From positions 1-37,227 of the forward strand of contig JAOQAG010000044.1 in the NCBI GenBank assembly GCA_025963715.1: a stretch of 37,227 bases of DNA. Direction: 5' to 3'. This stretch comes from Bacteroidota bacterium. Lineage in GTDB: Bacteria; Bacteroidota; Bacteroidia; 2-12-FULL-35-15. Each line of letters begins with the position of its first letter. Within the stretch, counting starts at the first letter, position 1. Both the position numbers and the translations under genes were made by a program. Below, piece after piece: positions 10,560 to 30,340 of this stretch. Below the pieces are notes generated by a model, which saw only the letters and a program-made list of their open reading frames with translations, did not search any database and had not been told where the DNA came from.

Positions 10560-10597
10560 AAAAAACTCAAAGCGAAGAAAATGATCTCCACTTTGAG
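10560..10597 (-). terminator. Possible terminator of the giant-protein operon
   Basis: On the minus strand CTCAAAG (10597-10591) pairs with CTTTGAG (10572-10566), followed by six T. The 18-nt loop is long. It is the first hairpin with a T-run after the stop at 10644. Confidence 0.4.
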
Positions 10598-10628
10598 CTT
10601 TCAAAATCTCCACTTTGAGCTTTCAAAC
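10585..10628. repeat. Two tandem copies of a 22-bp unit
   Basis: Positions 10585-10606 and 10607-10628 are the same 22-base unit (core CCACTTTGAGCTTTCAAA) except for the last base. They lie directly downstream of the 2496-aa gene and each carries one arm of the possible terminator. Confidence 0.7.
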
Positions 10629-10643
10629 TTTACAACTTATTAT

Positions 10644-13600
10644 CTACGCATATTTAATCGTATACGCATAGCTGGTACCGTTTGTACATAAATCAGTGTA
10701 CAATACAATGGTTACAAAATACGTACGGTAAGCTGTGCTTAAATCAAGCCCACCATCTCCATCGAGAAACTCATACGTATCTAATGATATGACTGAACTC
10801 AATATGTATGCGCCACCCAGGTCATCTTCCAGAATTACATCCATGTGATCAAATGTGTGTCCGGAAGGCAAACTGCCCGAGATCAGATCTGTTATGAAGA
10901 TCCTGACATTCGGATCGGTTGCCAGTGTGACCGTTGTATCTGCAATCGGGTTGATACTGGTGCTGTTGGCATCTTCGTAGGATGCAATGTTTGTTAATCC
11001 TGCCAGCTGATCACAAGGTGTGTACGTATACGTAATGCTGTAATCTTTTTGATAACCGGTAGTGCATTCGAGGCTGAATAATTTTACGTTCACTGTATAC
11101 GTAATGTTCGGATTAGCTGAACCTGTTGCAATGCCATCCGTATTATCGAATGTAACAAAATCCATTACACTCAGGATCTGTTTTGTAACAGGTGTACTGT
11201 TTACACTATCCGTTACCGTGATGTCGATGTGGCCAAACGTTTCACCAATCGCGGGCAGGTCTGTAATGTCCGTGAAGGTTAGCAGCGACGTATATGCCCC
11301 GCCATCATTGATGTAGCCGGATACAAACGGATTGATGGTGTGTGTATCATCATCATACTTCACAATATCGGTTACCTGTTGCAGATCATAACATGGGCCT
11401 GCAAGATAATTGATCGTGAATGTTTGTATGGCGCCGTTAGCAGGGAAGTTCGGTACAAAATCCGTAAAGGTATTGGTGGTCACGGTGTATTTTATGTTCG
11501 GACTGTTCAGCACCAATCCGGTTCCATCGCCGTTTGTAAACGTTGCAGTTGTGGCCGGGGCAACAATGCTGTGCGTAGCGGAATGTCCGAGATCATCGGC
11601 CATGGTAATGTCCACTTTTATAAATGTATTGTGGCCCGCCGGTAACGGATTGTCTAAATAAGTAAAGCTGATCGTATCCGGCTGACTGGAACCGGTAATA
11701 AAATCTTTGGAAACAAGCACCGGCAATGTGTGGGCGTGTGAATCCGCAAAACTTACCACGCTTGGAATTTCCTGCAGATCGGATGCGCCTTTTCCAAGTG
11801 TTAATTCATATTCGGTAAGGTTAAATAAGCCCGATGAATTTTCTACTTCTACGCGGAAGCGGTAATAGATCGGATTACCATCTGCATCAACTCTCGGCAG
11901 CGATTGCGTTTCCGGGTATGTTGTAAAATCAGGAAGCATGGTGCTCGGATCTATCGGCGGATATTGCATGCTGTCGTCTTTTACTTTGATGCTATAGATT
12001 TCCACCCAGTTGCCGCTTGTATTTAATTTTTGCAAACGGTAAGTCCCGTTGTAGCAGGTCGGGTCCCAGGTTAAAACTACATCCTGCAAAAGTGTAAGCG
12101 TGGACGTTCCATTTTCCGACATCAACACCGGTGGTTGCGGATTGATCACATCCACTACATTTGTTAATGCCGCATTGGATGGCAACGATAAAATATCTTC
12201 CGGCAATAATAATTCATTTTGGATTCTTCTTACCGCCACAATTTTGTAAAACAATGTTTCTCCATAAGGCGGGATCAGCAAGTCTGCAAAATCATCGATC
12301 ACCGGTTGGCCCACATCCACTTTTCTACCCAGTTTCATGGTGCGGATGTTACTTGCATCGGCAGCGTTGTATGCCCTGTAGATCCAGAATTGTGTAATGC
12401 CTTCGGTTTCGTTGAACGGTGTTAATTTAAATGAAACCGATGTTTCAATATTGTTGGCTGGATCTTCCAAAATGGTGATCACTTCACGGATTCCCGGCGC
12501 TTGTGCTGGCGCTGCATTTACCATTAACACCGGTGCTTTTACACCGCTTGGCGGACCAATTACCAGTTGGTTGGTGATCTCCCGCGAGTAATAAAAATAA
12601 AATGCAGTAGAAGCGCCATCCAGTGTATAATCCGTAAAACGAATGTAAAAATCATTGGTAGAAATGCTGTAACCCACGTCAGATGGCAGCAACGTAACGG
12701 TACCATTTTTTGCAAATTTTACTGCCATCGGATGCGGATCATAATTATCAGGATTATAACCCGGTGTTTCCGGCAGGATCGGCGTGATGATATCACCGTT
12801 ATACGTTCTGTAAATTGGTTTGCGTGGCGATGTGGTAATGCCGCCTTTTACATATTTGTAAATTACCGGTTGCTCTGTTAACGACAGGAATGAATCGAGG
12901 ACGGCCTGGCGCACAAGATCTTCCTGCCCCGCTACAAGCATTGATGTGGGCGTTGCAAACGGATGAACAATTACGGAACTGTCCCTGTTCGGAACAATGT
13001 AATCGCCATTATCCGGCAACGGAAAATCAAAAGATAAGCTATTGGCAGTAGACTGAAAATTACCGGTGGAAGGATCCACGGTCACATTCACTAAATTATA
13101 CAGCATGTCGTAATACGCAGCGGTATCGGTTACTTTCAGCTGTTTTACCGCAGTGAGAATTGTTGCCAGTGTTGTTTCATTGTAAAGCGTATCCAGTACT
13201 TTTATTTCGCTTCCGCGATACACCAGCACTCCGTATGGTTTACGGTCATCGGTAGTATTCAGTTTTATATCAACCGTGTAAGTCGATTTTTTATAAAAGT
13301 CGGGACGCGTTGCAAACAAAGGCCCGGCAAGCTCTGGTTTTTCGGGCGTTACAATTTCCTGTGCAAGCACCGGCACCAACGGCGCAATGTAAGAATCGTA
13401 TTCTACGATCACATTTGCCGGTTGTTCTTTTACATGATCGAGTGAACGGATACCGAGATAGGTAATTTTGCTGCCATCTCCTGGAGCCGGTAAAATGGTA
13501 ACGCCGTTAAACTGGTGTGTGCTGTCATTATTTCCCAACGAATTAAATTCCGCTTTCAGATACAAACGATACGAGGGATGAAAATTCACGTTGATGTTTG

Positions 13601-16600
13601 TTCCCGTTTTGATCGGGAACGGATCGGTAGCATACGCCGGATCATAAATAATAAGTTCCAGCGGAACAAGCGGCACGCCGCTTATATCTTTTTTAATTTC
13701 CCATACCTGTAATGCTTTGATCACGGCTTGCGGTACACCGGCAATGGTTGCGGTATTGGTATCCGAAATGCGCAGGGTTCCTTTGTACCATTCCACGCCC
13801 GGATCGATGTGCGGCAATAATGTGTAGGTATTGAACAATACATTGTACACGCCCGGAACGGCAACGGGAAGCCCTGTGATCGGATCGGGTGCCGTTACCT
13901 GCGTTACATGCGCCGGTTGGAAAATGCCGCCGTACGAAAATTTAGTTTCCGTGCTGTCATAATTTATTTTTGTTTCCACGTAAGGCGGAATGATCACGGA
14001 TGTTAAATTCCCTGCAACAGTCACCGTCTGCGTAAGCATATTGATGCCGGTAATGGTTGCTGTTTTTTCAATAGCCATGTATCCGAAGCTGGTAGTTGCA
14101 TCTGCAATTGGCCCGGTAACGGTAATTTCTGTATTGCCCGAAACAAATGCAGGTGTTCCGGAAATAGTATATTCTGCATCATTTGAATACGATGATCCGA
14201 ATACGCGTACAATTGTTAAGCCCGTTAAATCAGCGGTGATGTTACCGGCAATTTTTATTTTGCTGGTACCGGCATCAATGGAAATCATTGTGAATACTTT
14301 GTTGTAACGAATATTTCCGGCAACGGTGCTGCTTTTTAATTTGTCAAGCACTACAATTTCCGTATTGGAACCAACAGCGGTTACGTGTTCTATTTTATAC
14401 GTTCCATTATTAGCTGTTCCCGTAGCTTCCAGCGCGATGGTGAAATTCGTATGGAATTTTTCGAGGTATACGGTACGGTTTAAATGAGTGCTCCAGTTGG
14501 GATCCACCGCTAAATTTTCCACCACCAGGAAACGGTCGCCCACAGTTGGTTGCAGCCAGTTAACCAATGTGGTGAACTGGTTGTTGTTCAACGGATCGTA
14601 GGAAGATGTTTCCCTGATCTGGTTCAGCGTAAATTCCGGATAGGTTCCTGTATTATTAATGACTGTGATCGCAAATGCCTGCGATGCAGTTGCAAACGTG
14701 GAACCGATGTATTTACTTTCCTCTCCGGTTGGAATGGCCGGAGAAACCGTTTGAACAGGCGAAGTGCTCAGGATCGTCATGCTGGTTACTTTTACCAGCA
14801 CCTGGTGATTGGCAAGCTGTGTTATCGAAACAACTTGTCCGCTGATGGAATCCGGTGCAGTTTCCCTGTAAAATAATTGCGCACGTTCCGCATACTGGTA
14901 ATTTACATTGTGCGTATGATTCCATTCAAACGTGGCGCGCAGCAAGGTTTTATCTGCAGTTGCAATAGCGGCCAACGCCGTTTGTTCCCCTTGCGTGGTA
15001 AACATGATCGGCTGTTCCGGCTGGATCAGCTGAACTGCAAAGTTGGATGGCGGCATCAGGTTTTTTGCTTTCCTGAATTTTGTATAATCCGTGCATTCCT
15101 GGTTGCTTAACGGCGATATGCGCGAGAACCAGTTGATGGCATACAATGCATAACAATGAATCCCTTCTTCGCGTTCCTGGTGCGTATAAATATTTGTCTG
15201 GCCCTGCTCCGGAATCTCCACCACTTCGTTGTAACCGGCATAATCAAAATATTCTTCATCCTGTGTGATCTCCGGTTTGCGATACACCGATTCTGCAACT
15301 CCTTTGTAATCTATTCCGTACATCACAGGAATGGTTTCTTTGGAAAGATCGAATTCGGTGGTGTTGTAAAAAAAGCTTCCCCATGGAATTTCATAATCAA
15401 AGATCTCCCTGTTGATCTGCACAAAACGCACATCGTCATACGCCACATAACCATCCGCATCGGTGAGCTGGTTTATTTCGCCAATGCCATTGCTTACGCT
15501 CATGCCGTAGGTGATAAATTCCTGAATGGGCGCTGTCGGTAAGCGGTAATCTTCCAGCGTTGTAGGAAGCGTCATGTATAAATGGCTTTGCACGCGTGTG
15601 CTTGGATCGCCTGTTTCCAGCGCGCCGTGGCTGGTGTATACCATCAGGTGGACGTATGCGGTACCATCATTCGGAATTTCTGCATCAATCAAACCTAAAC
15701 CCATCATGCGTGCAATGTGATAATCAATGCCAACCAAACGTAAAATATCAAAATAGCTGATGTTGATCACCGCATCGTTGCCCGGATCGTCTTCCACCGG
15801 AACAGCAATTACTGCTTTTGGATCAGTTACGCTGTAGTTAAGGTATTGTTCAATTGTATTCTGGATTCCATCCGCCGCGATCGTATCCGGGTGTTCTGCA
15901 TCCGGAGCGGGATACCAGCGGTGCTGGTAATTTTCTACACGTATTTTAAATTCGCCGGTACTGGCATCGCTGTCATTGTATTTGTCCCAGGCTTTATCTA
16001 CTGCATATTTTTTTGCAGGAGAAACGTATGGATTGTTATCGTTCTCCAGCCGGTCGTATGCAAGCGGCGTTTGAAGCGTTAAAGCATAATCACCCATGAA
16101 AGCCCACAGATTCAGCGAATTGATGGTATTGATATAATCGTAATATGTTTCCAGAACAATTTCAGAAACATAAGCAATGGAATAATCCAGGCGGACTCCT
16201 GCCATGGTTTCGCCTTTGATGATGGCGCTTGCCAGCTGGGTTGGCCCGGTAAATGTTTTCCGTGCAGTAACAAAAGTAGTGGTGGTATCCATCGGATCGT
16301 TGTATGCGATTGATTCGGCGCGGATATAGGCACTGCTGGTAGATCCGGGATTGTAAAGTACATTGAACTGTATCGAGAAAATTGTTTTAGTATCGGCAGC
16401 TACGAGTATGATCCCGGTGTATTGTTTCATAAAATCTTCCGGGAGCAATGGCGACATGGTGGCGCGGATCGTATCATATTGTACCAGGTTGGAGAAGCGT
16501 ATAATAATGTTGGTGGTTCCAACACCGCTGTTGGTAAGGGTAATACCGTTATAATGCCATTCCCTGGTAGTTCCCGTGCTGATTTCGGTAGTAGGCAATA

Positions 16601-18134
16601 CGGCATTCTGAAATTTTACTTTCGCCTGGTAAGGCCCGCTGTAAGGAACTTTATAAATTTTCACATAATCATCCGGTGTACTAAATCCGACAGTGGTGTA
16701 ATACGGGCTCGAAGGATTTGCATACGGCCCTTTTGCAAAGTGATTATCACCCAATGATTTATTGAAGCGCCAGCGCAGATGAATTCCTTCCGATGAATGA
16801 TCCGAAACATCGGAACCGGCTGCCTGCATATAAATGTAAGGTGATTGTACAAGGCCGTCTAACGGAATGGTATCAGGTGCCGGGCAAATTTTGTGATCCG
16901 GGATCGGGTAGTGCGATACGATCGGTTCAATATCGGTAATGGGTGGCGTGTACTCTTTTGGAGTAAGTTTTGTAATGTTGGTAATGGTAAATGTATAGTT
17001 CGATTCCTCCGGATCCTGGCTAGTGGTCACACAGCTTGTAAAATCAGTATCGGTGCGTACGTTGAACGGTGATGTAAACGTACCGTTCTTCATCCAGCCA
17101 TCTATCACAATCTCGTCAGTATCGCTGTCATAGATCGCATCTGCTAAAAAATAAGTAATGCCTGTGCCAAGCGTTAAATTTCTCGACCATACAAGACTTA
17201 AGCTGGAATTATATTTTGCGGCATAACTTCCACCTGCTTTGTAACCGAACATGTAATAATTGCCATCGATCTCAAGCACTTTCCGCAGGCTCATATCTGT
17301 GCCTGTAAGCAGCGGAGAACTATTGGCTGTAACACTTGTGGAGCCGGAACTTATTTTTACAATGAATTGATTTTTGTTGCTTGCGGATGCGCCAAGGTCG
17401 CCGGTGAAAATAAACTCTCCGGCAGAAGGCCCCGGTGTGATCGATCGCAATTCGCTATACACAGTGGTTTTAATTACTTTTTTTGAAGCAATAACAAATG
17501 TTTTAGTTACGGAAATTACAAAACTATCATAGCCCGTTACAATGGTTGTACCGCCGTAAATAATTGCACCACCGCTGGCAGTTGGTGCCAGTCCTGCTGT
17601 TTGAATACTGGTGGATTGCAATCCGAAAATGGTGGATGCTTCCAGGTCACCATTCATATCCACACGCACTCCTTCAATGTCTTCAACCGATTTTGAAACG
17701 AATCGCTTGCTGATGAACATAAAGCTGTTGTAACGCTCTTCCCCGGCAGTATCCAGCGAAAGGATCATTTGCAGCGGGCGAATGGTGTTTCCATCACCGT
17801 AGGTTTTTGCCCAGATCACATTACCGGCAGAATCAATACGGATCAGCAAAGCAAGCACATTGGTGGTGGTTACCTGGTAGGCTCCGAATAAAATATAATC
17901 GCCCGGTTGCGTATGATCGTTAATATCTGCCGCACTGATAAAGGCGATCTTCGTTTCGTCTTCCAGTGTATATTCTGTTTGGCCAACAACGTTTCCATCT
18001 GCATCAACGGTAACGGTTAATCCCGTGCCGCTCATTCCGCCAACCAAAAATTTATTGTCGGTGCCGGTGATGGATACTAATCCCCCAAATCTTCCTGTGA
18101 TGGCAGGGTCGAATTCCTTAATGTATAGTGACAT
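10644..18134 (-). CDS. Giant 2496-aa protein of unknown function: propeller, FN3-like and C-terminal tandem repeats
   Basis: I cannot name a family. There is no signal peptide (MSLYIKEFDPAITGRFGGLV), no membrane segment and no T9SS tail. Residues ~1-400 look like SBBP-type propeller blades (AGNVIWAKTYGDG at 103-115). Residues ~424-455 hold a motif-like stretch, LDGLVQSPYIYMQAAGSD followed by GIHLRWRF. Near 805-820 is ARMMGLGLIDAE. Residues ~1241-1350 contain two copies of a ~38-residue unit (NNGTYKIEHV... and NDAEYTISGT...). FN3-like strands lie around 1880-2100. The last ~378 residues are three tandem repeats. Composition is Thr/Ser/Asn/Asp-rich and beta-like, as in structural or adhesive proteins. 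It is the last gene of the putative operon, 44 nt after the 2025-aa gene. GC is higher than in the first genes of the unit. A large cytoplasmic assembly or cargo of an unrecognised exporter are both possible. Confidence 0.75.
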   Translation of the reverse strand: MSLYIKEFDPAITGRFGGLVSITGTDNKFLVGGMSGTGLTVTVDADGNVVGQTEYTLEDETKIAFISAADINDHTQPGDYILFGAYQVTTTNVLALLIRIDSAGNVIWAKTYGDGNTIRPLQMILSLDTAGEERYNSFMFISKRFVSKSVEDIEGVRVDMNGDLEASTIFGLQSTSIQTAGLAPTASGGAIIYGGTTIVTGYDSFVISVTKTFVIASKKVIKTTVYSELRSITPGPSAGEFIFTGDLGASASNKNQFIVKISSGSTSVTANSSPLLTGTDMSLRKVLEIDGNYYMFGYKAGGSYAAKYNSSLSLVWSRNLTLGTGITYFLADAIYDSDTDEIVIDGWMKNGTFTSPFNVRTDTDFTSCVTTSQDPEESNYTFTITNITKLTPKEYTPPITDIEPIVSHYPIPDHKICPAPDTIPLDGLVQSPYIYMQAAGSDVSDHSSEGIHLRWRFNKSLGDNHFAKGPYANPSSPYYTTVGFSTPDDYVKIYKVPYSGPYQAKVKFQNAVLPTTEISTGTTREWHYNGITLTNSGVGTTNIIIRFSNLVQYDTIRATMSPLLPEDFMKQYTGIILVAADTKTIFSIQFNVLYNPGSTSSAYIRAESIAYNDPMDTTTTFVTARKTFTGPTQLASAIIKGETMAGVRLDYSIAYVSEIVLETYYDYINTINSLNLWAFMGDYALTLQTPLAYDRLENDNNPYVSPAKKYAVDKAWDKYNDSDASTGEFKIRVENYQHRWYPAPDAEHPDTIAADGIQNTIEQYLNYSVTDPKAVIAVPVEDDPGNDAVINISYFDILRLVGIDYHIARMMGLGLIDAEIPNDGTAYVHLMVYTSHGALETGDPSTRVQSHLYMTLPTTLEDYRLPTAPIQEFITYGMSVSNGIGEINQLTDADGYVAYDDVRFVQINREIFDYEIPWGSFFYNTTEFDLSKETIPVMYGIDYKGVAESVYRKPEITQDEEYFDYAGYNEVVEIPEQGQTNIYTHQEREEGIHCYALYAINWFSRISPLSNQECTDYTKFRKAKNLMPPSNFAVQLIQPEQPIMFTTQGEQTALAAIATADKTLLRATFEWNHTHNVNYQYAERAQLFYRETAPDSISGQVVSITQLANHQVLVKVTSMTILSTSPVQTVSPAIPTGEESKYIGSTFATASQAFAITVINNTGTYPEFTLNQIRETSSYDPLNNNQFTTLVNWLQPTVGDRFLVVENLAVDPNWSTHLNRTVYLEKFHTNFTIALEATGTANNGTYKIEHVTAVGSNTEIVVLDKLKSSTVAGNIRYNKVFTMISIDAGTSKIKIAGNITADLTGLTIVRVFGSSYSNDAEYTISGTPAFVSGNTEITVTGPIADATTSFGYMAIEKTATITGINMLTQTVTVAGNLTSVIIPPYVETKINYDSTETKFSYGGIFQPAHVTQVTAPDPITGLPVAVPGVYNVLFNTYTLLPHIDPGVEWYKGTLRISDTNTATIAGVPQAVIKALQVWEIKKDISGVPLVPLELIIYDPAYATDPFPIKTGTNINVNFHPSYRLYLKAEFNSLGNNDSTHQFNGVTILPAPGDGSKITYLGIRSLDHVKEQPANVIVEYDSYIAPLVPVLAQEIVTPEKPELAGPLFATRPDFYKKSTYTVDIKLNTTDDRKPYGVLVYRGSEIKVLDTLYNETTLATILTAVKQLKVTDTAAYYDMLYNLVNVTVDPSTGNFQSTANSLSFDFPLPDNGDYIVPNRDSSVIVHPFATPTSMLVAGQEDLVRQAVLDSFLSLTEQPVIYKYVKGGITTSPRKPIYRTYNGDIITPILPETPGYNPDNYDPHPMAVKFAKNGTVTLLPSDVGYSISTNDFYIRFTDYTLDGASTAFYFYYSREITNQLVIGPPSGVKAPVLMVNAAPAQAPGIREVITILEDPANNIETSVSFKLTPFNETEGITQFWIYRAYNAADASNIRTMKLGRKVDVGQPVIDDFADLLIPPYGETLFYKIVAVRRIQNELLLPEDILSLPSNAALTNVVDVINPQPPVLMSENGTSTLTLLQDVVLTWDPTCYNGTYRLQKLNTSGNWVEIYSIKVKDDSMQYPPIDPSTMLPDFTTYPETQSLPRVDADGNPIYYRFRVEVENSSGLFNLTEYELTLGKGASDLQEIPSVVSFADSHAHTLPVLVSKDFITGSSQPDTISFTYLDNPLPAGHNTFIKVDITMADDLGHSATHSIVAPATTATFTNGDGTGLVLNSPNIKYTVTTNTFTDFVPNFPANGAIQTFTINYLAGPCYDLQQVTDIVKYDDDTHTINPFVSGYINDGGAYTSLLTFTDITDLPAIGETFGHIDITVTDSVNSTPVTKQILSVMDFVTFDNTDGIATGSANPNITYTVNVKLFSLECTTGYQKDYSITYTYTPCDQLAGLTNIASYEDANSTSINPIADTTVTLATDPNVRIFITDLISGSLPSGHTFDHMDVILEDDLGGAYILSSVISLDTYEFLDGDGGLDLSTAYRTYFVTIVLYTDLCTNGTSYAYTIKYA
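10647..11780 (-). repeat. Three tandem ~120-130-aa repeats at the end of the 2496-aa protein
   Basis: The repeats cover residues about 2119-2249, 2250-2375 and 2376-2496. Each opens with a (D/Q)-L-x-x-(I/L/V) strand and a short D/H-rich turn (SFADSHAHTLP, KYDDDTHTINP, SYEDANSTSINP). Each has a G-(H/E)-x-F-x-x-(V/I/M)-D-(I/V) core (HNTFIKVDITM, ETFGHIDITV, HTFDHMDVIL) and ends in alternating Tyr/Thr strands. DNA identity between copies is low, so the duplication is old. Confidence 0.65.
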
Positions 18135-18178
18135 ATGAAATGTTTTTAATTTTTTTAATCTGTTACGTTAATCAATTT

Positions 18179-21100: not shown

Positions 21101-24100
21101 CAATGTTTCCTGGCTCATCACGTTCAGTGATTTTACTGCACTTTGTAAATTAGTGCTTACACTTGGCGTGGATCCGCCTCCCAGTACGTTGGTTGATACA
21201 ATTGGAATTTCGCTGAAATCCAGCGTGTGCTCAAACGTCCAGGTGAAATCCAGGTCGATGCAATAATTTTTCTTTAAAATTTTCACACACACTTCCACCG
21301 AACCACTTACAATAAAAGGTTTCGGTGCTTCTGCAGCAAGTGATGCATCGGCAGTCAGGCTAAATCCTTTACCACATACTTTTATATCTACGCCGCCGCC
21401 AATATCAATGCTGCCGCCAATCTGGATCGGCTTGAATGCAAGGCGCGCGGCTGTATCCATGTAGGCATACAAACGCGCTTTGATCGGGCCGACTTTGTAA
21501 TTTTTTTCGAGTGATGCGCCTGCACCTGCACGGATGCCGGTTGCAGATAACATGAAATATGAATAGACATCAAACAGGTCGAAAATGCGGGCACGTACTC
21601 TTCTGTCGGCTGGCTGGTCGCGGCCGATGTTGAGATACCATGCCGATGAGTCGTGCCAGAAATAAGCCATCTCGATCAATGCATCTACCGTTGCAATTTT
21701 TCCGGTATCCGGAAACTTGTAATTAACGCCCAATCCGGCGCTGATGCTGTTCGGATCAATAGCGATGATGGCAAAGAACGGAGGATCGGTTTCATCCGAT
21801 AATCCGATGCGTTCTTTTAAGATCTGCGCTTGTCCCTGTAATAAAAATACTTCGGGCAGCGACAATAAGAAAAATAATTTACTGCTGAATGTTTTTCCAC
21901 CGTCGGCAGCAGTTGCCAGTGAAACGCCTGCTCCGAAAGAGAATCCCGGCAGGTTCGCCATTTTAGAATTTTGAATTCCTTCTTTGTAATCCGGTGTTAC
22001 TTTCTTTTTATAATATTGCCACCATTCGGCATCGGCCGGTAAGCTTACCGGCGCTTCGGTTTTGGAAACCACGTATTGTTTTCCGAACAGCGCCCTGAAA
22101 CCATAAATTCCCATACCGGTTGCACCGAGTACAATTGGTGTGCTCAGCTCCAGCGATACATCGATCAGGAAAGATGGAATTTTCGGGTTGTATTTCATGG
22201 CAGCGCTGCCGCCCATTTTTAATTTTGGTAATTTAAAATCAATACCACCGGCGTATTCCGTGCCTGCATCCGAATCCGGGTTGGTAGGCGGCCGCATGGA
22301 AAGATAACCGCTCAGTAATAACGTTGCCTGTTCCTTGCTTGCATTACCCGGGATGATCAGGTCGATGGAAATGCTTTGGATGCGTACAAAAATATCGATC
22401 GCGCCACCGTCAACACTAAAATAGATCTGGATCCCGTCACCGCGTGCATCCACACCACCCGGGTTTATACTGATCCCGGCGCTGAATTCCACGTATTTAT
22501 ATTTCCGCATGGAACCACCGTGCATGCGCTCGTAGCTACCCATGCCTATTGCAGTAACTGTTAATTTTACCGGGCCAATGTTTATTTTTACCGGATTACG
22601 CAATTCAATTGTTCCGCCTTCCAGCTCTATTTGCCCGTTTTCCCAGATCAGTAATTTCTGGATCTCGATATCTTTCGGTAATAAATTGGAGATAAACGAA
22701 TCGCCAGTTGGAAGGAAATCGAGGATACCGGAAAGTGCTAAAAAGAATTTATTGGATTTTCTTCCAATGGTAAGGCTTTTTAGTGTTACCGTAAAATAAC
22801 TCTGGAAATGCAACGGCAGCATAATACCGTCTTCATCGCTGGCGGTAACATAAAAATCACCATTGCCATCTATATGTACTTTTATACGGATTTTGTAATC
22901 AGGGTTTGTGCCATCGTGAACGCCGGGAATCGTGAGTGTTCCCTGTATGTCGGACGATATAATTGCATTTTGCTGAAAAGTAATGCTGAAGGTGTCTAAC
23001 GAGATCGCAAATTTATCTCCAAAACGTACGCTGATAAACGGAGAAGGATCACCGGATGTGAATGCTCTTAATCCAATGGTTCCGGAAATTCCGCCGGTAC
23101 CCGCAAGCAAATTGCTCACATATAATTCGCCGGTAGAAGGTGCTGAATCAGGCGGATTGTGATTCCAGTCAGCAGGGAAACCAATGGTGCCGTCTTTTAT
23201 ATAAACGCCGATGAAATCATCAGGACGGCCATCAGCGTCTGCTTCGGGAATATTTTTAGTACGGCTTAGATCCAGCTTCATATCATGAAGCTCAAGCGTG
23301 AATCTTGTACCGAGGATAAATGATTTTTGGAAATCGAAAGAGCTTTCGCCGGTAAATTCGTAGCCTTCTTCGGTACTGAAAGCAAGAGAACCAATATTGA
23401 ATTTTAATAATGTTTGATATGGCTCGGGAACAGGATCACCTAACGGCACACTTGTAGGATTGAATGTAGAAGTAGCTACCGGAACAAAAACATTCCTGGG
23501 AAATTCAATTCCCATTGACAGGTTCTCAATGCTTACTGCAGCTTGAGGAATAAGCATTTTTTTAAAATCTTCTACATCAAAACTTCCCAGCCATTTTTTG
23601 AAAAGGAGTTTTATGTTTTCAAAAATTTCATTAAACGAATTAAATGTATTAATATAATCTGAAAATAAAATAGAGATGGTATCAAAACTTTGGCTTTCTA
23701 TCTGGTTGATCAAATCTTCATACACATTAACATTGGGATTACTGGTAATAGCGATCGAAATAGCCGGGCTGTATTTTGTATTAAAATCAGTTACAAACTT
23801 TAGTATAGGATCACTGTCACTAATAAAAAGATTGATCACTTCTTCAATTAATTCGGAGTTATCGATATTCAGAATTTCGAGAAATAAATTATAAAAGGCA
23901 GCTGCATCTGCATTAAAAAATGCGTTTTCGAATTCACGGATATACTTTATTATTTCCCATTTATAGCTTAAGCTTATAGGAATCGGCGTAATCCCTGAAA
24001 GTGTATAAGTATCATCAGGGTTAAGTAAAATTGAAAGCCCTGTGCCAGGAATGTCAAAACCTATCCGGCCATAGGATAATAATGTAAGTTTATAATATCC

Positions 24101-24256
24101 CTGTTCACCTAAAGAGCTTTTCTCAACGATGAGATCTTTATAAAAGATCTTGTTGAAAATATTTTGAATTCCATCTTTTACAGGGCCTAGAGACGAAGGA
24201 ATATTCTCGATAGGGATAAGTTCTGATACAGCGGGATAAAAATTGCTAGTGGCCAT
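18179..24256 (-). CDS. Giant 2025-aa protein of unknown function with a long beta-rich core
   Basis: I cannot place this protein with confidence. It has no signal peptide or T9SS tail. Residues 1-240 are largely helical (for example IEEVINLFISDSDPILKFV). Residues ~245-1010 are a long run of amphipathic beta-like strands with alternating polar and hydrophobic residues (FTVTLKSLTIGRK, IQIYFSVDGGAIDIFVRI, GIYGFRALFGKQYVV, IQIGGSIDIGGGVDIKVC). This resembles large beta-groove or DUF6603-like proteins, which is a tentative comparison. Residues ~1050-2025 are a mixed domain with an IDIEFRKPVRP motif, a Cys-rich patch (CYKECFNFFYQIC, near 1500) and a C-terminal LYKLYDGYAYVVNATEIV. It starts 58 nt after the LRR/MORN gene and is followed after 44 nt by the 2496-aa gene. 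The first ~750 nt are visibly more AT-rich than the rest, so the N-terminal domain may have a separate origin. Confidence 0.75.
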   Translation of the reverse strand: MATSNFYPAVSELIPIENIPSSLGPVKDGIQNIFNKIFYKDLIVEKSSLGEQGYYKLTLLSYGRIGFDIPGTGLSILLNPDDTYTLSGITPIPISLSYKWEIIKYIREFENAFFNADAAAFYNLFLEILNIDNSELIEEVINLFISDSDPILKFVTDFNTKYSPAISIAITSNPNVNVYEDLINQIESQSFDTISILFSDYINTFNSFNEIFENIKLLFKKWLGSFDVEDFKKMLIPQAAVSIENLSMGIEFPRNVFVPVATSTFNPTSVPLGDPVPEPYQTLLKFNIGSLAFSTEEGYEFTGESSFDFQKSFILGTRFTLELHDMKLDLSRTKNIPEADADGRPDDFIGVYIKDGTIGFPADWNHNPPDSAPSTGELYVSNLLAGTGGISGTIGLRAFTSGDPSPFISVRFGDKFAISLDTFSITFQQNAIISSDIQGTLTIPGVHDGTNPDYKIRIKVHIDGNGDFYVTASDEDGIMLPLHFQSYFTVTLKSLTIGRKSNKFFLALSGILDFLPTGDSFISNLLPKDIEIQKLLIWENGQIELEGGTIELRNPVKINIGPVKLTVTAIGMGSYERMHGGSMRKYKYVEFSAGISINPGGVDARGDGIQIYFSVDGGAIDIFVRIQSISIDLIIPGNASKEQATLLLSGYLSMRPPTNPDSDAGTEYAGGIDFKLPKLKMGGSAAMKYNPKIPSFLIDVSLELSTPIVLGATGMGIYGFRALFGKQYVVSKTEAPVSLPADAEWWQYYKKKVTPDYKEGIQNSKMANLPGFSFGAGVSLATAADGGKTFSSKLFFLLSLPEVFLLQGQAQILKERIGLSDETDPPFFAIIAIDPNSISAGLGVNYKFPDTGKIATVDALIEMAYFWHDSSAWYLNIGRDQPADRRVRARIFDLFDVYSYFMLSATGIRAGAGASLEKNYKVGPIKARLYAYMDTAARLAFKPIQIGGSIDIGGGVDIKVCGKGFSLTADASLAAEAPKPFIVSGSVEVCVKILKKNYCIDLDFTWTFEHTLDFSEIPIVSTNVLGGGSTPSVSTNLQSAVKSLNVMSQETLNVLCLENVAGAIPAFTPGSGVWTNIDDYILPMDSFIDIEFRKPVRPNGPDASLARFGGVTPGANYSVYVAPQRGKSNRVRHDFLLNKVEIFSWNPTTSAWVPYHVYNAIDMLTAPPFSVSTTVLNDLKFGFWQIDNPGNYTKLRLLAQTPLSFLNQGTGDTIAEELGVTNAIFCPPDAIEKTCVNMNALSAGTVAVAGTTIPAGEILQQKGVLFRVTTHDSSVIYKPYAGIINALQFKAADTLEIYLPEAMPEVTMLFKTLTSALIFNYYSRTQVGLNPSGDPVYGYTLVGTVTKTPSQLALGVLYSDPANPIDKIEVTGDVCTLTSGLSCDTSISEQITDILTFLNAIIVNTQIYDTIILPSSIYAELVAPMIFGPVPLPSDFTYQPTHTTTLLNSIFTSAITGFNCGVSFSTTGGTTIDWTTVIRFQNPRPNPAISPVNGINYAFLVDVVLNTGSVVTLSASSRCMPSYYCYKECFNFFYQICYINVVDYQYNQSLPTTTDVTDSNTSMVNAINQTITPVWRPDTTFAVRVNFSDAIFEESSSHSSPAYGFVLAFRTKGPVGHFHEYPTGDGTSNVLPAYTDLVNKDEQDQYKLSVLKYYIDYKKSYPNADGSILNSKPLYYQNPKLSLFYIFPHVYQFYQNWGSYNGAPAVDSSLEVIIKDPIEVPMVVNPADPTGPLIPSVIDGSLNEWHTSAHPTITPDIAALNNMITNGVAESNPCVPSMTAMTPQGTYNVVSPDPLEPLKLYTAIYNASYNPASLGLTAPQKREVHRYGFQTSRYKDFNEHISSYILLRDPVTTLPTKLAVYALNKAFGPTVLTRAQDVIAGTLPATDVLHQEAALDFDKLVDRLFEFKELEPAEFVQFNLVIDTGSSNVLGILIRNPEPFNDPKIPIAELNDALVMLVDTGSGFGGSYTTYYSKDRASAFITNSDHSMNVPKAMHQFTFLYKLYDGYAYVVNATEIVTLDFSGVS

Positions 24257-24314
24257 GTTGATTATCTTATTAAAATATTTTTATAAATTTATTTAGTAAA
24301 CAAAACGGTAAATG

Positions 24315-25598
24315 TTACTTTTCTATTAATATTCCATTTGTATACAAGTTGATTCTTTGGATTGTGTTAGTAGAATCTCTGTATATTTCTTTGCCATTTA
24401 TTTTTCCGTTTTGATAATTTGCCTCGTAAGAAACAATCTGTGTTCCTCCGGTATTATTATAATAAAACCTGACAGGCCCATTTAGTAGATCATTTGAATA
24501 CGAAAATTCTGAGCTTACAATCCCTGTTTCATAATATGTTTTCCATATACCATCCGCCATATTATTTTTAAAAAAAGATTCCTTTCTTATTTTACCGTTT
24601 GCATAAAACCACACGAACCGGGTTAATACGCTTTCAAAAGATAAGCTGATCAATTTCGTTCCATAGGAGTCATAAATTGACCATATCCCGGTTTCTTTTC
24701 CAGAACGATAAAATCGTTCTTCTTTTAATTTACCATTATTATAATAAAAATTCCAGTTCCCATCCGGCTGATTCAACGAATCCAATTGTCCCGTAATACT
24801 TTTATTTCCGTTTGAAAAGGAGTCGCTGATTTTTTTTTCTACAGGTTTTAAATTACTGTTTGAAAAATCATGGAGATTGTTGGGACCCATTACTAAATCT
24901 GATTCAATGTTTATGTGCTGTGATTTTATAAAATCTTTTTCTTCTAAATTGTCACAGAGATCATTTGAAAAAACTGAATTATGCCTTTGATCTTCTGTTA
25001 TAACATCGAAGTTACAGGGCTCACTAATATTCAAATACCGTAACTGTGGTAAATATGCAATTGATACGGGTAATATTACCGGCCCCAGGTAAGCTTCCAG
25101 CTTAATGTACAATAGCTTTGATAATTTTGAGATCTTTTCCGGAATATATATTAAACCTGAAATGCCTTTTACTTCCAATACTTTTAAGTTAGCCAGGTCA
25201 TACAAGCCATCTGATAATGTTATTAAATTCGTATGCTCACAAGCATCGCTATTGCAGAGGTTTAATTTAAGTACCTGCAAGTTTTTAAATTCAAAGGCTT
25301 CAATAGGAAAATGAGAATAATCGCCATCTATCTGCAATTCCTGAAGATTTGGAAAATTTATAGCTTTGATCAAGATCAAATCGCTAAACTCTTTTTGTAT
25401 GCAAAGGCGATACACTTTTTTATTCACCTTATTAACATCGATCCCGTTTTTATTGCTTTGGGCCGACAGGTAATATATCTTCTGTTTGTTCAGCTCATCC
25501 AGCGATAAGACCTTGTCCAAAGCGAACGAAGATCCTGAGCAGAGTATTGAGCAGAAGAGTATAAGTATGCGGATCCTATTTAATAAAAATATTTTCAT
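24315..25598 (-). CDS. Exported LRR and MORN-like repeat protein
   Basis: This 427-aa protein has an N-terminal signal peptide (hydrophobic ILILFCSILCSGSSFA, residues ~11-26). Residues ~80-195 contain leucine-rich repeats (FPNLQELQIDGD, LQVLKLNLCNSD, LANLKVLEVKG, LSKLLYIKLEAYLG, LPQLRYLNISE). Residues ~279-427 carry five or six MORN_2-like units with the W-x-x-Y/F-Y-x-N-G-x-x-x-E pattern (GNWNFYYNNGKLKEE, GIWSIYDSYG, VWFYANGKIRKES, GIWKTYYETGIVSSE, GPVRFYYNN). MORN_2 repeats of this kind are often labelled YwqK-family antitoxin; nothing here supports a toxin-antitoxin role. It starts only 6 nt after the 787-aa gene, so it is probably translated from the same transcript, yet it is the only exported product of the unit. 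AT-rich like the two genes before it. Confidence 0.8.
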   Translation of the reverse strand: MKIFLLNRIRILILFCSILCSGSSFALDKVLSLDELNKQKIYYLSAQSNKNGIDVNKVNKKVYRLCIQKEFSDLILIKAINFPNLQELQIDGDYSHFPIEAFEFKNLQVLKLNLCNSDACEHTNLITLSDGLYDLANLKVLEVKGISGLIYIPEKISKLSKLLYIKLEAYLGPVILPVSIAYLPQLRYLNISEPCNFDVITEDQRHNSVFSNDLCDNLEEKDFIKSQHINIESDLVMGPNNLHDFSNSNLKPVEKKISDSFSNGNKSITGQLDSLNQPDGNWNFYYNNGKLKEERFYRSGKETGIWSIYDSYGTKLISLSFESVLTRFVWFYANGKIRKESFFKNNMADGIWKTYYETGIVSSEFSYSNDLLNGPVRFYYNNTGGTQIVSYEANYQNGKINGKEIYRDSTNTIQRINLYTNGILIEK

Positions 25599-25604
25599 CG
25601 CGAA

Positions 25605-27968
25605 TTAATATAAAAGCTGATCTGCAGCAGATGTATACCATTTTAAATCTTCATAAGTTGTATTAATAGCATAAAGAGGAGCGTTGGTTGGTATGCCGCT
25701 AATTTTAATTGTTTCGCATACAGCATTGTTTCTTAGCGTTAATAAATTGGTTGCTACATTCGTTGCTATTGTAGTTCCCTGCAATGCTGCTCTTGCATTT
25801 ATTCTATAGGCTAATGCTTCTAAAATGCCAAAGCATCTGAGCGTACTTAAAAGCTGATTGTATGAGGCAATTTTAGGATTGGTTGAGCTATTAAATGGCA
25901 GGGACTCATTTAACAGCAAATAAGCATCTGTCGAAGAGTTTGCGCCATACCAGGTTTGCGGCTGTAGGTCAGTATTGAATCTTGGTAAATTAACAGTAGT
26001 ATAGTCCCTGTAATCAAAAGGATTGGCAGGATCAGTAGGCGTGCCTGTTCCATCTAAATTAGGCCCCAACAAGCGTTTATCCAACCTGGATCTTAAAGGG
26101 CTTACATAAGATTCGATCCGTATTTCCAAATAAGTGCTGCTGTAGGTAACTGTTCCAAAGCTATATCTTAATTTTGGATATAATGTTTCATTATCAGAGC
26201 CCACAGCAGGTGGTAAATAATCTTCTTTTTTTACGGTGGTGCTCCTGAAAAGTGTATAGTCCGGATCCGCCATAACACCTGATGTACCGGGGCTGGAACT
26301 ACCCGGAACCTGCTTGCCTACAAATGCGCCATTTAAAAAAACAACGGGAACAACAGTTGGAGATGCCGCTTTTAAAATATCTACAAGCTTATCAAGTTTT
26401 GCGTCATAATCAGTTGCTGGCTGTAAAAAAACGGTGTCTTTTTGACTGGTTGTTAGTTCAAACCGGTCATCGTTGAATAAATTCTCCACAACAAAAGAAA
26501 ATTGTTCTGCTGTGTCTTTTACAACTACTGCTATAACTCCAACTTCTTCTGTTCCGCTATAGGACGTTATTTGTACATCACTCCCATCTGATGTAAAAAC
26601 TAATTCCTGTAAAGCAGTATTATAGGTTGCTATAATAGTATAAGGAGCGGATGCCTTATCGACAAAATAATAGATGCCCGGTAAAGGGGATTTAACAAAA
26701 GCAAGTGTTGTTGGAAAATCGGGGTTCATGATATTAAAAGTAGCTCCTGTGGGATCAAAAGGTGTAGGAACACTCCCGTTACCTATTGTCGGGCTTGTGC
26801 TAGCAATAAAATAACAGCCATATTTACCAACTTTAACGGCAAGATAGGAGGAGTCATCATCTAATCCAAAAACATCCAGGTGAACAACCGTGCGGCTGCC
26901 AGCTGTAGGTGACTTAAAAGATTTTATTTTTTGCGAACTCACTGTTTCAGAATTTCTGCTTCCATTTGTTTGCAGTTCAAAATCATATTCCAGGAACAGG
27001 AGCCCATAGTTGTTTTTACAGAGAATCCCCTGGCTAAATGATCCATTTCCAGAGGCAAGTATCATTCCGTCCGGTAGTTCTTTTCCGGGGATAATAGAAT
27101 TAAAAAGACATTTTACTAATTGTTGAATTATTAAATTTTTTTGAACATTCCATTCCGTGAAAATTTTTAATAGGACTTTGTTATATTCGTCCTGGAGGTA
27201 AAATGTAAGGTCGCTTCCCGAAGCTCCATTATTTGCCTTATTCTTATAAACGTTCATTACATTTGGATCCTTGAATTTAAAATGATCTTCATCAGGTAAA
27301 AGATTTGCCGGCGGAGTCGTAAATGGGACTTTAACCATATATGTAAACAGCTTTCCTTTGATCGTAGTTGTGCTTGTCGTATCTCCTTTGCCTCCAAAAG
27401 CTATGTTTGGCATCATCAGATCATTAAATGCAATTTTTTCAGAAGCTTTTTTTGGTAGTTGAAAACCATTGTCCAGCAATACCTGTTTTAATGCCTGGTA
27501 AATAACAGGTTGGCTGGTATCAGCAATTATCGCTTGTTTTGCTATTTCAGAAGTATTAGATGACAAGGTTGTATTCGTTGTAATTGTACCCTTTGTTATG
27601 AGCTGCAACTGTTTTGTTAAATGAAACATTACAACCATATATAATCCGGCGCTTAAGGCTCCTGCATCGATTTTAGTAGAATCAATAACAACAATGCTAT
27701 ATCCCGGTGAACTTGTACCTGTAACAGAAATTCCAGCTGGCGCAAATCCATTCTGGTATATTTTTGTAAGTTGCGGCGCAGGTGTAGTTGTTAAATTAAG
27801 ATTTGCAGGTGGTACTGTTGCCGGATTGCCGTCAATATAGTATAACACTTGTTGCAACGATTCAAGCAGGTCCTGAGGGATTGTTGCCGCAGTACAAAGT
27901 GGGCTGCTGAAAAAAGCAGCGAGTGTCGTTACAGGTATAGTTACCTTTTCATCTTTATATATTGGCAT
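25605..27968 (-). CDS. 787-aa protein of unknown function, second gene of the giant-protein unit
   Basis: I do not recognise this protein. It starts MPIYKDEKVTIPVTTLAAFF without a signal peptide, membrane segment or sorting tail. The N-terminal ~250 residues alternate Thr/Pro-rich and helical stretches. Around residues 260-300 is a helix with FYLQDEYNKVLLKIFTEW. Residues ~310-500 look like a beta-sandwich (GLLFLEYDFEL, TVVHLDVFGLDDDSSYLAVKV, GCYFIAS). The C-terminal part (from ~600: YLEIRIESYVSPLRSRL, YRDYTTVNLPRF, ILEALAYRINARA) is mixed. It follows the 697-aa gene with 3 nt between stop and start and precedes the LRR/MORN gene by 6 nt, so translational coupling is likely. AT-rich. Its place before two giant proteins suggests a joint role, unproven. 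Confidence 0.7.
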   Translation of the reverse strand: MPIYKDEKVTIPVTTLAAFFSSPLCTAATIPQDLLESLQQVLYYIDGNPATVPPANLNLTTTPAPQLTKIYQNGFAPAGISVTGTSSPGYSIVVIDSTKIDAGALSAGLYMVVMFHLTKQLQLITKGTITTNTTLSSNTSEIAKQAIIADTSQPVIYQALKQVLLDNGFQLPKKASEKIAFNDLMMPNIAFGGKGDTTSTTTIKGKLFTYMVKVPFTTPPANLLPDEDHFKFKDPNVMNVYKNKANNGASGSDLTFYLQDEYNKVLLKIFTEWNVQKNLIIQQLVKCLFNSIIPGKELPDGMILASGNGSFSQGILCKNNYGLLFLEYDFELQTNGSRNSETVSSQKIKSFKSPTAGSRTVVHLDVFGLDDDSSYLAVKVGKYGCYFIASTSPTIGNGSVPTPFDPTGATFNIMNPDFPTTLAFVKSPLPGIYYFVDKASAPYTIIATYNTALQELVFTSDGSDVQITSYSGTEEVGVIAVVVKDTAEQFSFVVENLFNDDRFELTTSQKDTVFLQPATDYDAKLDKLVDILKAASPTVVPVVFLNGAFVGKQVPGSSSPGTSGVMADPDYTLFRSTTVKKEDYLPPAVGSDNETLYPKLRYSFGTVTYSSTYLEIRIESYVSPLRSRLDKRLLGPNLDGTGTPTDPANPFDYRDYTTVNLPRFNTDLQPQTWYGANSSTDAYLLLNESLPFNSSTNPKIASYNQLLSTLRCFGILEALAYRINARAALQGTTIATNVATNLLTLRNNAVCETIKISGIPTNAPLYAINTTYEDLKWYTSAADQLLY

Positions 27969-27971
27969 GGC

Positions 27972-30065
27972 TTAGTTATATATGGTGTATGAATTTAATA
28001 AAACGTCTAGCGGCAGATATTCGGTAGCAGTTATGTTCCCTGAACCGTCAATGGTGAAACCTTTAAGCATAATATCATATCTGAAATATTTTATAGGAGG
28101 GTTGTCATTTGACTGATCATTCGCTGTAGTACCATCCCTATCATTCCTATTGGCAACACCCAAAAATATTTTGTAGTAGTTCGAAAGGCCTCCGAGAGTT
28201 ATTTTTATATCATCAAAAGCTGTTTTTTTGAAAATAATTGCAATAAACTGGGTTTCATAAAGCGGCACAGTAAACTTTTCAAGAAAAGAAGGATCGGCTG
28301 CTTCCATCTTTAGGGTTTGGATCTGAGGTGGTATAAGATAATTTAATGTGATCAGTGTTTCTGTAAGCTGGTTAAGCTTTTCGCGATTATCGGCATAGTT
28401 CATGAAAAAATCACTGTTGCTGTCGGTTTCTGAATTAAAAGAAATTTGATTGTGTGTTCTGAATAGCTGTGGATTTTTATGAATATCCTTTGCAAAAGCA
28501 AAAAGTGTAACGGTATCAGTGTCTACTGCTATTCCGATATCTGCAACAAAATCAATTCCCTGTTCATTAAGCCAATCCACATAAACCTCTTCATTATATA
28601 CTTTTACACGAACTTTTGGAAGTCCTGTAACAGTTGAAAATGGAAATGGAACTCCCATTTTTAACAAAGGAAATAAACTGTCCATAAAATCGGTTGAGCG
28701 AATTACTGTTCCCGAAGAGGTGGGTGGATCACCATTTTTTCTATTTAATTTTTTAAAATACCTTAATTTTATGATGCAGGAAATAACAGTGGTATCTGTG
28801 TTGCTATCCCTGTTTGGCGTAGCCAGCTCAATATCCGAAGTATAGCCCGTTGGAGTGGTAGGCTCTATAAACCGGTCTTTCCCTCTAAGCTGTTTTCTAA
28901 ATGAGAATAATTTGTTTTTATATCCTTGCGAAATATAAACAACTGGAAATTCATTATCCCCTATAGGTAAATTAATTTTAATTGTATTTTTTGATGATGT
29001 ATTTCCTGCTGGAAATAAAGGAGAACCACTAGAGTTAAGAATCAGGACCGGCCAGTTGTTCGTGTAATAATCACTGTTAACAATGGCTGCAGCCTGTAAT
29101 GAAATATTTATGAAATTGCCATAATTTTTATAATAATTAAACGACTGATTATGCTCATTCCTGATATCAAGAAACACACAATTCCGGTTATAAAAATTTC
29201 CGTTGGTAGCCGTTGTATGTTGCGTTCCCTTTAAAACTTTATCATAAATGTCGTTGCCTGATGTTTTATTAAACGTGCCGGAAGTCGTTTTTGCGCGGAT
29301 AGTATCAGCATAAAATGAACCGTAGAAAGCACCCGCGTCTATGAAATTCAAGATCTCTTCTTTGTCATGCCAATACTTAAAAATATCGGCATCCGTTGGA
29401 GTAGGAGTAGTTGGAAGTTGTGGAACCTTAATAAAGTTTTCTTGGTTACGGGTAAATTTTAATATAGGATCATACCCTACGCTTTCCGTTATAATTTCAA
29501 AGCCAAATCCTGCAGGATCAAAATTGCCAATATCCCATCCAGCTGTTACTTTCGGAAATTGGTAAGTAATTCCTTCTCTGTAAAATAAATTATCAATCAG
29601 GTCACTATCATCAAAGTTGGTAATTGTTGCATCAAGATCAATTCCCAAGGCTTTTTCAGAAGGCGGAACGGAGGCCTGCCCTGTAATAAAAAGAAATGCA
29701 TCCCATGAAGTTTTTACACTTCCTGTTAAATCATTATTGGATGTATTAAGAACATTGCCGCTCCCATCTAATAACGAGTTTTTTAAAATGCCTTTGTAAA
29801 TAATATACTTTATTGTGGCACAATTGATTCGGGGCTTATTTGATGGTTTTAAAATTAAATTTACCAGATTTGTATTTCCCTGATCTTGTTGAATACATAC
29901 CGTCCCATCACAAATTGCGTATGCCTTAGGAGTGCCCGTTGCTGTATGCAGGCTGGTAACTCTGAATTGCTCATCAGTACCCGAAATGCCTGCCGGTCCG
30001 TATGCCTGAGAAGAACTCTGAGAGTTCAGTAAATCAATATCCGTGAAGAAGAAAAAATCAGCCAT
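27972..30065 (-). CDS. 697-aa protein of unknown function, first gene of the giant-protein unit
   Basis: I do not recognise a named family. The protein begins MADFFFFTDIDLLNSQSSSQ with no signal peptide. Residues ~25-110 have a compact alternating pattern (QFRVTSLHTATGTPKAYAIC, CIQQD, NLVNLILKPS, INCATIKYIIYKGI) that looks like a conserved N-terminal domain. Later landmarks are NCVFLDIRNEHNQSFNYYKN (~300), PIGDNEFPVVYISQGYKNK (~365), RVKVYNEEVYVDWLNEQGID (~505) and a C-terminal sandwich ending EYLPLDVLLNSYTIYN. Aromatic and Asn residues are abundant. It leads the transcription unit: 351 nt of AT-rich non-coding DNA lie upstream, with a terminator of the neighbouring operon in it. I found no TAnnTTTG promoter there, so this unit may use an unusual promoter. 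Confidence 0.7.
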   Translation of the reverse strand: MADFFFFTDIDLLNSQSSSQAYGPAGISGTDEQFRVTSLHTATGTPKAYAICDGTVCIQQDQGNTNLVNLILKPSNKPRINCATIKYIIYKGILKNSLLDGSGNVLNTSNNDLTGSVKTSWDAFLFITGQASVPPSEKALGIDLDATITNFDDSDLIDNLFYREGITYQFPKVTAGWDIGNFDPAGFGFEIITESVGYDPILKFTRNQENFIKVPQLPTTPTPTDADIFKYWHDKEEILNFIDAGAFYGSFYADTIRAKTTSGTFNKTSGNDIYDKVLKGTQHTTATNGNFYNRNCVFLDIRNEHNQSFNYYKNYGNFINISLQAAAIVNSDYYTNNWPVLILNSSGSPLFPAGNTSSKNTIKINLPIGDNEFPVVYISQGYKNKLFSFRKQLRGKDRFIEPTTPTGYTSDIELATPNRDSNTDTTVISCIIKLRYFKKLNRKNGDPPTSSGTVIRSTDFMDSLFPLLKMGVPFPFSTVTGLPKVRVKVYNEEVYVDWLNEQGIDFVADIGIAVDTDTVTLFAFAKDIHKNPQLFRTHNQISFNSETDSNSDFFMNYADNREKLNQLTETLITLNYLIPPQIQTLKMEAADPSFLEKFTVPLYETQFIAIIFKKTAFDDIKITLGGLSNYYKIFLGVANRNDRDGTTANDQSNDNPPIKYFRYDIMLKGFTIDGSGNITATEYLPLDVLLNSYTIYN

Positions 30066-30310
30066 AATATTTATTTTTTAAAATATATAACGTATATACA
30101 AGTAAGAAGATACTTTAGAGGAGAGGAAATTTTAAAACGTATTTTAAAATTTTGAAAAGTATTTAAAAAAGCATTTAAAAGAACGGTATGGCTAATATAA
30201 ACCAAAAAAAATGGAACTTATTGCATCTGGAAAATGCCGGAGAAAAAATAAAAATAATTTGAAAAAACTTAAAATGCTGAATTATAGCTGATTATGTGGC
30301 GAGTGCAAAA
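30066..30310. other. Very AT-rich region upstream of the giant-protein unit
   Basis: No gene is seen. On the strand that would drive the 697-aa gene there is no exact TAnnTTTG box; TATCTTCT (30106-30113, minus) and TATATTTT near 30081 are near misses. The stretch consists largely of TTTTAAAA-like words. Any regulator site cannot be identified by eye. Confidence 0.4.
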
Positions 30311-30340
30311 AAAAAGACCCGTAAAAATACGGGTCTTTTT
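30311..30340 (-). terminator. Rho-independent terminator of the TlpA-like gene
   Basis: AAAAAGACCCGTA (30311-30323) and TACGGGTCTTTTT (30328-30340) form a perfect 13-bp stem with the loop AAAA. Read leftwards a long T-run follows (A-run from 30307). It lies 77 nt after the stop at 30417, and is symmetrical enough to work both ways. Confidence 0.85.

Follow-up and report, generated by a model that had tools for sequence, protein, structure and literature searches.

The stretch of DNA analyzed here, hereafter the window, is the entire 37,227-nt contig C14 (JAOQAG010000044.1) of the draft Bacteroidota genome G000 (GCA_025963715.1). A preliminary description of the window had proposed that five tightly spaced minus-strand genes encode one unit of very large proteins, and all five open reading frames (ORFs) were re-found with the same coordinates and lengths. 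We named them in order of transcription. Gene A (27972-30065; 697 amino acids [aa]) encodes a conserved adaptor-like module of ~655 residues, without a cargo extension in the window; gene B (25605-27968; 787 aa) encodes a putative separate cargo, or effector, with no recognized motif; and gene C (24315-25598; 427 aa), a putative immunity gene, encodes an exported protein with leucine-rich repeats (LRR) and MORN_2. Genes D (18179-24256; 2025 aa) and E (10644-18134; 2496 aa) each encode a giant leaderless protein, that of D being related to DUF6603.

The gaps between A/B, B/C, C/D, and D/E are 3, 6, 58, and 44 nt. None of the 32 terminator-like sites from a scan of the window falls inside them, as the preliminary description had said; since shuffled sequence already yields 19.1 such sites, single short sites carry little meaning. 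A minus-strand terminator (30307-30340), with a perfect stem (GACCCGTA/TACGGGTC) followed by T9, separates A from the thioredoxin-like gene upstream of it, and 3' of E lies a terminator-like hairpin on the same strand (10561-10602) whose 18 pairs are the longest in the scan. With a terminator 5' of A and a hairpin 3' of E, the five genes look like one transcription unit. A Bacteroidota-type promoter (TTG, 17 to 23 nt, TAnnTTTG) was not found 5' of A. A 19-bp unit (GAAAGCTCAAAGTGGAGAT, minus strand) is directly repeated once just 3' of E (two copies, 10584-10624), and an A/G-rich low-complexity stretch follows.

As a proxy for export, we scored the best 11-residue N-terminal hydrophobic window of each protein. 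C scored 2.83, a clear hydrophobic segment that agrees with the export proposed for the 427-aa product. The proposal that the other four products lack signal peptides held for A, D, and E (1.1 to 1.16) and was borderline for B (1.76). Pfam gave no Por_Secre_tail match in A to E, in line with the claimed absence of type IX secretion system (T9SS) tails.

A, B, and E had no Pfam match at E ≤ 1, NCBIfam identified none of these three, and no trafficking or secretion domain known in Pfam or NCBIfam was detected in A, B, D, or E. PDB profile searches with A, D, E, and two further proteins described below (X and Z), and with B as a single sequence, returned nothing of weight. D and A had no match in phage records, four pattern matches in IMG/VR were all unrelated to D, PHROGs gave one marginal match, to C, and none identifying A, B, or E, and E had no match in the plasmids searched. 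D is related to DUF6603 by sequence comparison: against the Pfam model (PF20248) it scored 25.8 bits and its homolog in locus L003 26.3 bits, both under the cutoff of 27, and its residues 250 to 1006 share 27% identity with an annotated Mycetohabitans DUF6603 protein (tblastn). Neither the name DUF6603 nor the accession PF20248 was found in the literature searched.

Gene order and distribution of the unit

To place these genes in other genomes (G numbers), regions of up to 40 kb around matches were read, with ORFs called by a longest-ORF script, so that some ORF starts are guesses (e.g., that of D at one G297 locus). In the genus of the window, D was present in 2 of 36 genomes, its own included (single-protein search). 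Among 395 genomes of the class, D was detected in 19 (three-row profile) and A in 15. E was detected in 18, with long matches in 11, all of which also carry A and D. A and D occur together in 14 of the 395 (Fisher P = 8e-21). The adjacency of A to D in the 15 loci described here is partly selected, because these loci were picked by D matches; a separate search for A added only a fragment in G248.

At 11 of 11 loci of what we call the long type, all from the class of the window and including it, the order A-[cargo]-[C]-D-E is kept on one strand (G000, G019, G075, G193, G338, G110, G258, G374, G403, G257, and G133; loci L003 and L004 are those of G019 and G075, each counted once). E lies directly 3' of D at all 11, with a gap of 9 to 120 nt; in G110 the contig ends within E. 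Four short-type loci (two in G297, one each in G111 and G359) have the order A-[cargo]-[C]-D'-X, followed by further genes, E' at three loci and Z at two. D' corresponds to residues 9 to 1093 of D (hhalign probability 100), and X, E', and Z have no relation to the rest of D or to E by hhalign. The short-type genes of 1588 to 2695 aa had been taken for relatives of E, which we rejected (hhalign probability 0.2%) and renamed E'; the apparent link traced to a repeat at the C terminus of one protein.

Flanking genes differ among loci. None of the flank genes of the window matches those of the other 13 regions (E < 1e-5), and across all 14 regions, with 199 flank ORFs of at least 150 aa, 9 of 91 region pairs share one or more flank families. 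Conserved order with variable flanks had been set beforehand as the mark of a system; the A..D-E order in 10 other genomes, together with the differing flanks, qualifies these genes as one on that measure. By the same comparison the unit has a conserved part, made up of A, D, and E, and variable places, held by B and C. The idea that all five genes build one object was not supported, the place of B being held elsewhere by unrelated cargo and C being variable.

The count of 15 loci leaves out broken or cut ones (G175, G158, G204, G144, and G248). G175 is split between two contigs, one holding A with a D stub and the other the end of D with E. G248 (L105:9299-11526) is broken, with a 131-residue A fragment, an E fragment of ~345 residues, and a transposase-like ORF between them; the E match in G333 is likewise a fragment. 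Five genomes (G010, G047, G100, G143, and G174) match E over ~90 to 145 residues of its repeat part only, and residues 1 to 422 of E are absent from the aligned E of G075. D without A was found in five genomes (G158, G144, G204, G239, and G319). The matches in G239 (4.8e-7, in a stretch missed by the D profile) and G319 (5.5e-5) were too weak for us to take these as D members.

In G144 and G204 the N-terminal part of D lies inside another protein: the first ~318 residues stand at the end of proteins at L123:9013-11955 (G144) and L076:6468-8045 (G204), so this stretch is a module of its own. In G144 it is C-terminal to a propeller-like part whose N terminus has a hydrophobic stretch.

Relatives of D extend beyond the phylum, within which DUF6603 exceeded the cutoff in 5 of 99 genomes (0 of 14 controls). 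Two genomes, G142 and G465, had DUF6603 and no A in the stretch read, with a subtilase (5.5e-42) or a metallo-beta-lactamase domain (3e-8) beside the giants. On Mycetohabitans plasmids (L110:9152-22173 and L112:6161-18705), an E-like giant (E profile, 1e-9), a phospholipase D (Pfam, 1e-16), and a DUF6603 giant follow in order; as these bacteria are fungal endosymbionts, a eukaryotic target is thinkable. Two haloarchaeal plasmids carry, in order, a variable gene, D', X, and an E'-like giant, the variable gene being PhoD-like (2.3e-10) in one and not related in the other, and in Paenibacillus and Streptomyces a DUF6603 gene stands beside two other large genes. A was not detected in the Mycetohabitans, haloarchaeal, Paenibacillus, Streptomyces, or Paracoccus loci scanned.

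Interchangeable cargo, exported partners, and cassette exchange

Among 16 A homologs, the module carries a C-terminal extension of >100 aa in nine and is followed by a separate cargo gene in seven. The cargo belongs to several families, with motif names assigned by eye from the sequences. Four loci (G374, G111, and both in G297) have a LAS-like zinc peptidase by motif only, HVNGxAxD and LHxxHLH being present in all four. The cargo of G338 contains HEWGHVLGLSD and is zincin-like, also by motif only; that of G075 contains GHSRG and is hydrolase-like by motif, with a weak Chlorophyllase match in Pfam (0.0043). In G258 a subtilase domain is N-terminal to the A module (Pfam, 2.5e-22). Among the loci read, a homolog of B was found only in G019 (24% identity, E = 3.6e-13), and other, unrelated families take its place elsewhere. 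A constant module joined to variable C-terminal parts of several families is a feature of polymorphic toxin systems, and the cargo parts are putative toxins. The preliminary description had also considered the proteins as cargo for an unrecognized exporter, a description that suits B or, at other loci, the extension of A; D and E would be more carrier-like.

An orphan A homolog is present on the mobilizable Chryseobacterium sp. plasmid NZ_CP044508.1 (L111:9-4219). This zincin-type protein of 1134 aa matches A over two stretches (E = 7e-48), ends in an HExxH region, and is followed 3' by a lipoprotein gene of ~270 aa. Neither D nor E was found on this plasmid (tblastn).

A C gene lies between the cargo and D at 13 of 15 loci, followed in G403 and at one G297 locus by transposase-type ORFs before D. 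Of these C proteins, 11 of 13 have an N-terminal hydrophobic segment scoring at least 2.35 and one (G133) has an internal transmembrane stretch, giving an export or membrane signal at 12 of 13 loci; six begin with a lipobox-like start. In contrast, 0 of 56 A, B, D, X, E, and Z proteins exceed 1.8 on the same scale, the highest being B of the window. Three small ORFs outside these two sets (one in G075, two in G133) have no N-terminal hydrophobic segment. C varies in family as well: that of the window matches MORN_2 (Pfam, 4.1e-13) with a weak LRR match, that of G075 has WG repeats, and the gene 5' of the D stub in G158 is related to the LRR-MORN protein of the window (E = 5e-4). The four C-C matches found by phmmer all connect the four LAS loci, which also have homologous cargoes, so that at these loci the C family follows the cargo family. 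The 427-aa gene belongs to a variable group of genes that are immunity-like and whose products are exported, and we regard its product as a putative immunity protein. Export of the C proteins points to a cargo that would be harmful beyond the cytoplasm, probably to the envelope of kin cells.

Trees of A and D conflict. In the A tree, G374 joins the short-type LAS loci (98/97) and G359 joins the long-type loci (100/99); the two types separate cleanly in the D tree (100/100). G374 therefore carries a LAS-type A on a long D. In approximately unbiased (AU) tests, A rejects the long-D clade grouping (P = 6.5e-7) and D rejects the LAS clade (P = 1.9e-99), values that are optimistic because the groups were named after identity tables had been seen. 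Composition also changes within the unit. GC content of A-B-C is lower than that of D-E at 14 of 15 loci (P = 1.8e-4), the exception being G258 (for GC at third codon positions, G374); in the window it is 36.4% versus 44.3%, with A, B, and C at 33 to 38.5% and D and E at 43 to 45%. Stubs of the 5' end of D remain at two broken loci: G158 has a transposase, the LRR-MORN C homolog, and then only D residues 1 to ~175, and G175 has A-B-C and then only D residues 1 to ~250. The conflict between trees and the GC step indicate that the A-B-C cassette moves separately from the D-E giants, and with the D 5' stubs they support cassette exchange by recombination.

Interpretation and comparison with known systems

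Taking these data together, we consider it probable that the unit is a polymorphic effector-immunity system in which A-B-C is a swappable cassette and D-E a constant backbone. A would be a conserved adaptor module, produced without an export signal and accompanied by an enzyme that is fused to it or encoded next door, as with B in the window. The enzyme would act beyond the cytoplasm of its producer, on the envelope of a neighbor or on an extracellular target, and C, as an exported lipoprotein, secreted protein, or membrane protein, would protect the producer and its kin. D and E may form a giant, constant assembly that holds, releases, or delivers A with its cargo. Since export signals are absent from A, B, D, and E, release would come by lysis or some other path.

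Several observations weigh against this interpretation. Toxicity and immunity are inferred, as is delivery by D and E, from linkage; that these two giants leave the cell or bind A is hypothetical. B has no recognizable catalytic motif, the two LAS-type parts tested had no Pfam M15 match, and the G338 cargo had no Pfam peptidase match. C is missing at two loci whose cargo is protease-like (G338 and G258), the candidate in G403 carries no export signal, and G133 has three C candidates. Homologous B proteins at G110 and G359 (E = 5e-11), and at G000 and G019, are accompanied by C genes that phmmer does not join, which speaks against a strict pairing of C with cargo. Four C relatives would land on the four LAS loci by chance with a probability of 1/715, but this figure, like the AU values, is post hoc, and two of the four loci lie in one genome. 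Structure predictions of A (three-sequence alignment) and of D residues 230 to 1030 were unusable, with mean predicted local distance difference test (pLDDT) scores of 29.1 and 32.6.

Other explanations fit parts of these data. The unit might be linked to an extracellular contractile injection system (eCIS), since CIS_TMP exceeds its cutoff in 7 of 14 carriers of A and D versus 41 of 381 other genomes of the class (P = 4.5e-4) and phage-sheath matches (E ≤ 0.001) occur in 7 of 15 carriers, 4 of them over the cutoff. The genome of the window itself has an eCIS (Baseplate_J and CIS_TMP; contig C2, L104:1491-16798) whose cluster encodes a 1604-aa protein with a ~145-residue repeat also present in E (the counterpart in G010 is 1575 aa). 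However, that cluster is on a different contig from the unit, the shared repeat is missing from some E proteins, Pfam detects no contractile injection system domain in A to E, and half of the carriers, mostly near-complete genomes, have no CIS_TMP match. Families rich in eCIS may hold the unit for other reasons, with taxonomy causing the association, and we judge the link improbable. A type VI secretion system effector reading was dropped: the VipB sheath (PF05943) was found in 0 of 15 carriers, Escherichia coli being matched among the 14 controls.

It is equally improbable, in our estimate, that the giants assemble, in the cytoplasm or at the surface, into a complex organizing hydrolases for nutrition or envelope work, with C as an envelope partner rather than an immunity protein. 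The hydrolase-type cargo and neighbors (S8, PhoD, phospholipase D, and the metallo-beta-lactamase fold), the two protease loci lacking C, and the DUF6603 clusters outside Bacteroidota, which have no known immunity gene (small exported genes not having been looked for), would suit such a complex; the leaderless carriers, the swapping of cargo with a matched C in the LAS group, and the tree conflict and GC step, which are marks of conflict genes, do not. An anti-phage or other intracellular defense island, to which patchy spread, variable parts, and mobile-element neighbors might point, is very unlikely, as PADLOC gave no match for A to E and an exported C is ill suited to an effector acting in the cytoplasm of its producer. 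That the genes are chance neighbors without joint function would agree with the lack of annotation for every gene taken singly; it is close to negligible given an order kept in 11 genomes with differing flanks and the co-occurrence of A and D.

If the effector-immunity interpretation is correct, the unit represents a new class of polymorphic effectors, with an adaptor and giant partners missing from the domain libraries used, and supplies a ready set of putative effector-immunity pairs. It would also be a first testable setting for DUF6603, which has members in several bacterial phyla and haloarchaea, and it raises the question of how leaderless proteins totaling ~4,500 residues are used to move a single enzyme. 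More tentatively, D-E (in short form D'-X-E'-Z) could be an unrecognized, sheathless delivery or release machine of giant leaderless proteins carrying interchangeable hydrolases. D (DUF6603) would then be its component in Bacteroidota, Burkholderiales, Bacilli, actinomycetes, and haloarchaea. The antibacterial branch, in Bacteroidota, would be the one equipped with the A adaptor and with immunity proteins that are exported.

Known systems share features with the unit. The DUF6603 clusters contain a homolog of D, and in Mycetohabitans an enzyme gene and an E-like giant adjoin it; the unit differs in that D of the window is just below the cutoff and A was not in the loci scanned there. Unlike T9SS substrates, A, D, and E have no N-terminal hydrophobic segment and A to E have no Por_Secre_tail. 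Tc toxin complexes likewise combine giant leaderless proteins with a part that has a variable toxic C terminus; no Tc, RHS, or YD family was among the Pfam matches of A to E (E ≤ 1), no dedicated Tc search having been made. Toxins of eCIS and the Photorhabdus virulence cassette resemble the cargo in their diverse enzymes, some with immunity genes (PMC8213781), but Pfam matched neither DUF4157 nor any domain of a sheath, tube, or baseplate in A to E.

TANFOR toxins are also from Bacteroidota and, in the excerpted account (PMC7073777), have a constant N-terminal part, a variable C-terminal toxin, and a downstream immunity gene. That account gives most of them a signal peptide, which A, D, and E lack, and its excerpts describe no giant partners like D and E (PMC7073777). 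The TANFOR domain (TIGR02542) was not among the NCBIfam matches of A to E (E ≤ 1) and was found in 0 of 14 carrier genomes, no control genome matching either. In polymorphic toxin systems, toxin cassettes are exchanged, the trafficking part is kept, and immunity genes are adjacent (PMC3482391), features that the unit, with its putative immunity genes, shares; in contrast to those systems, the libraries searched gave no trafficking-part match for A, D, or E. The titles and opening abstract lines of the literature searched describe no such unit, and within these libraries and literature the proposal that the five genes form one undescribed unit stands. The adaptor and giant backbone are what is undescribed there; the logic of cassette and immunity is one already known.

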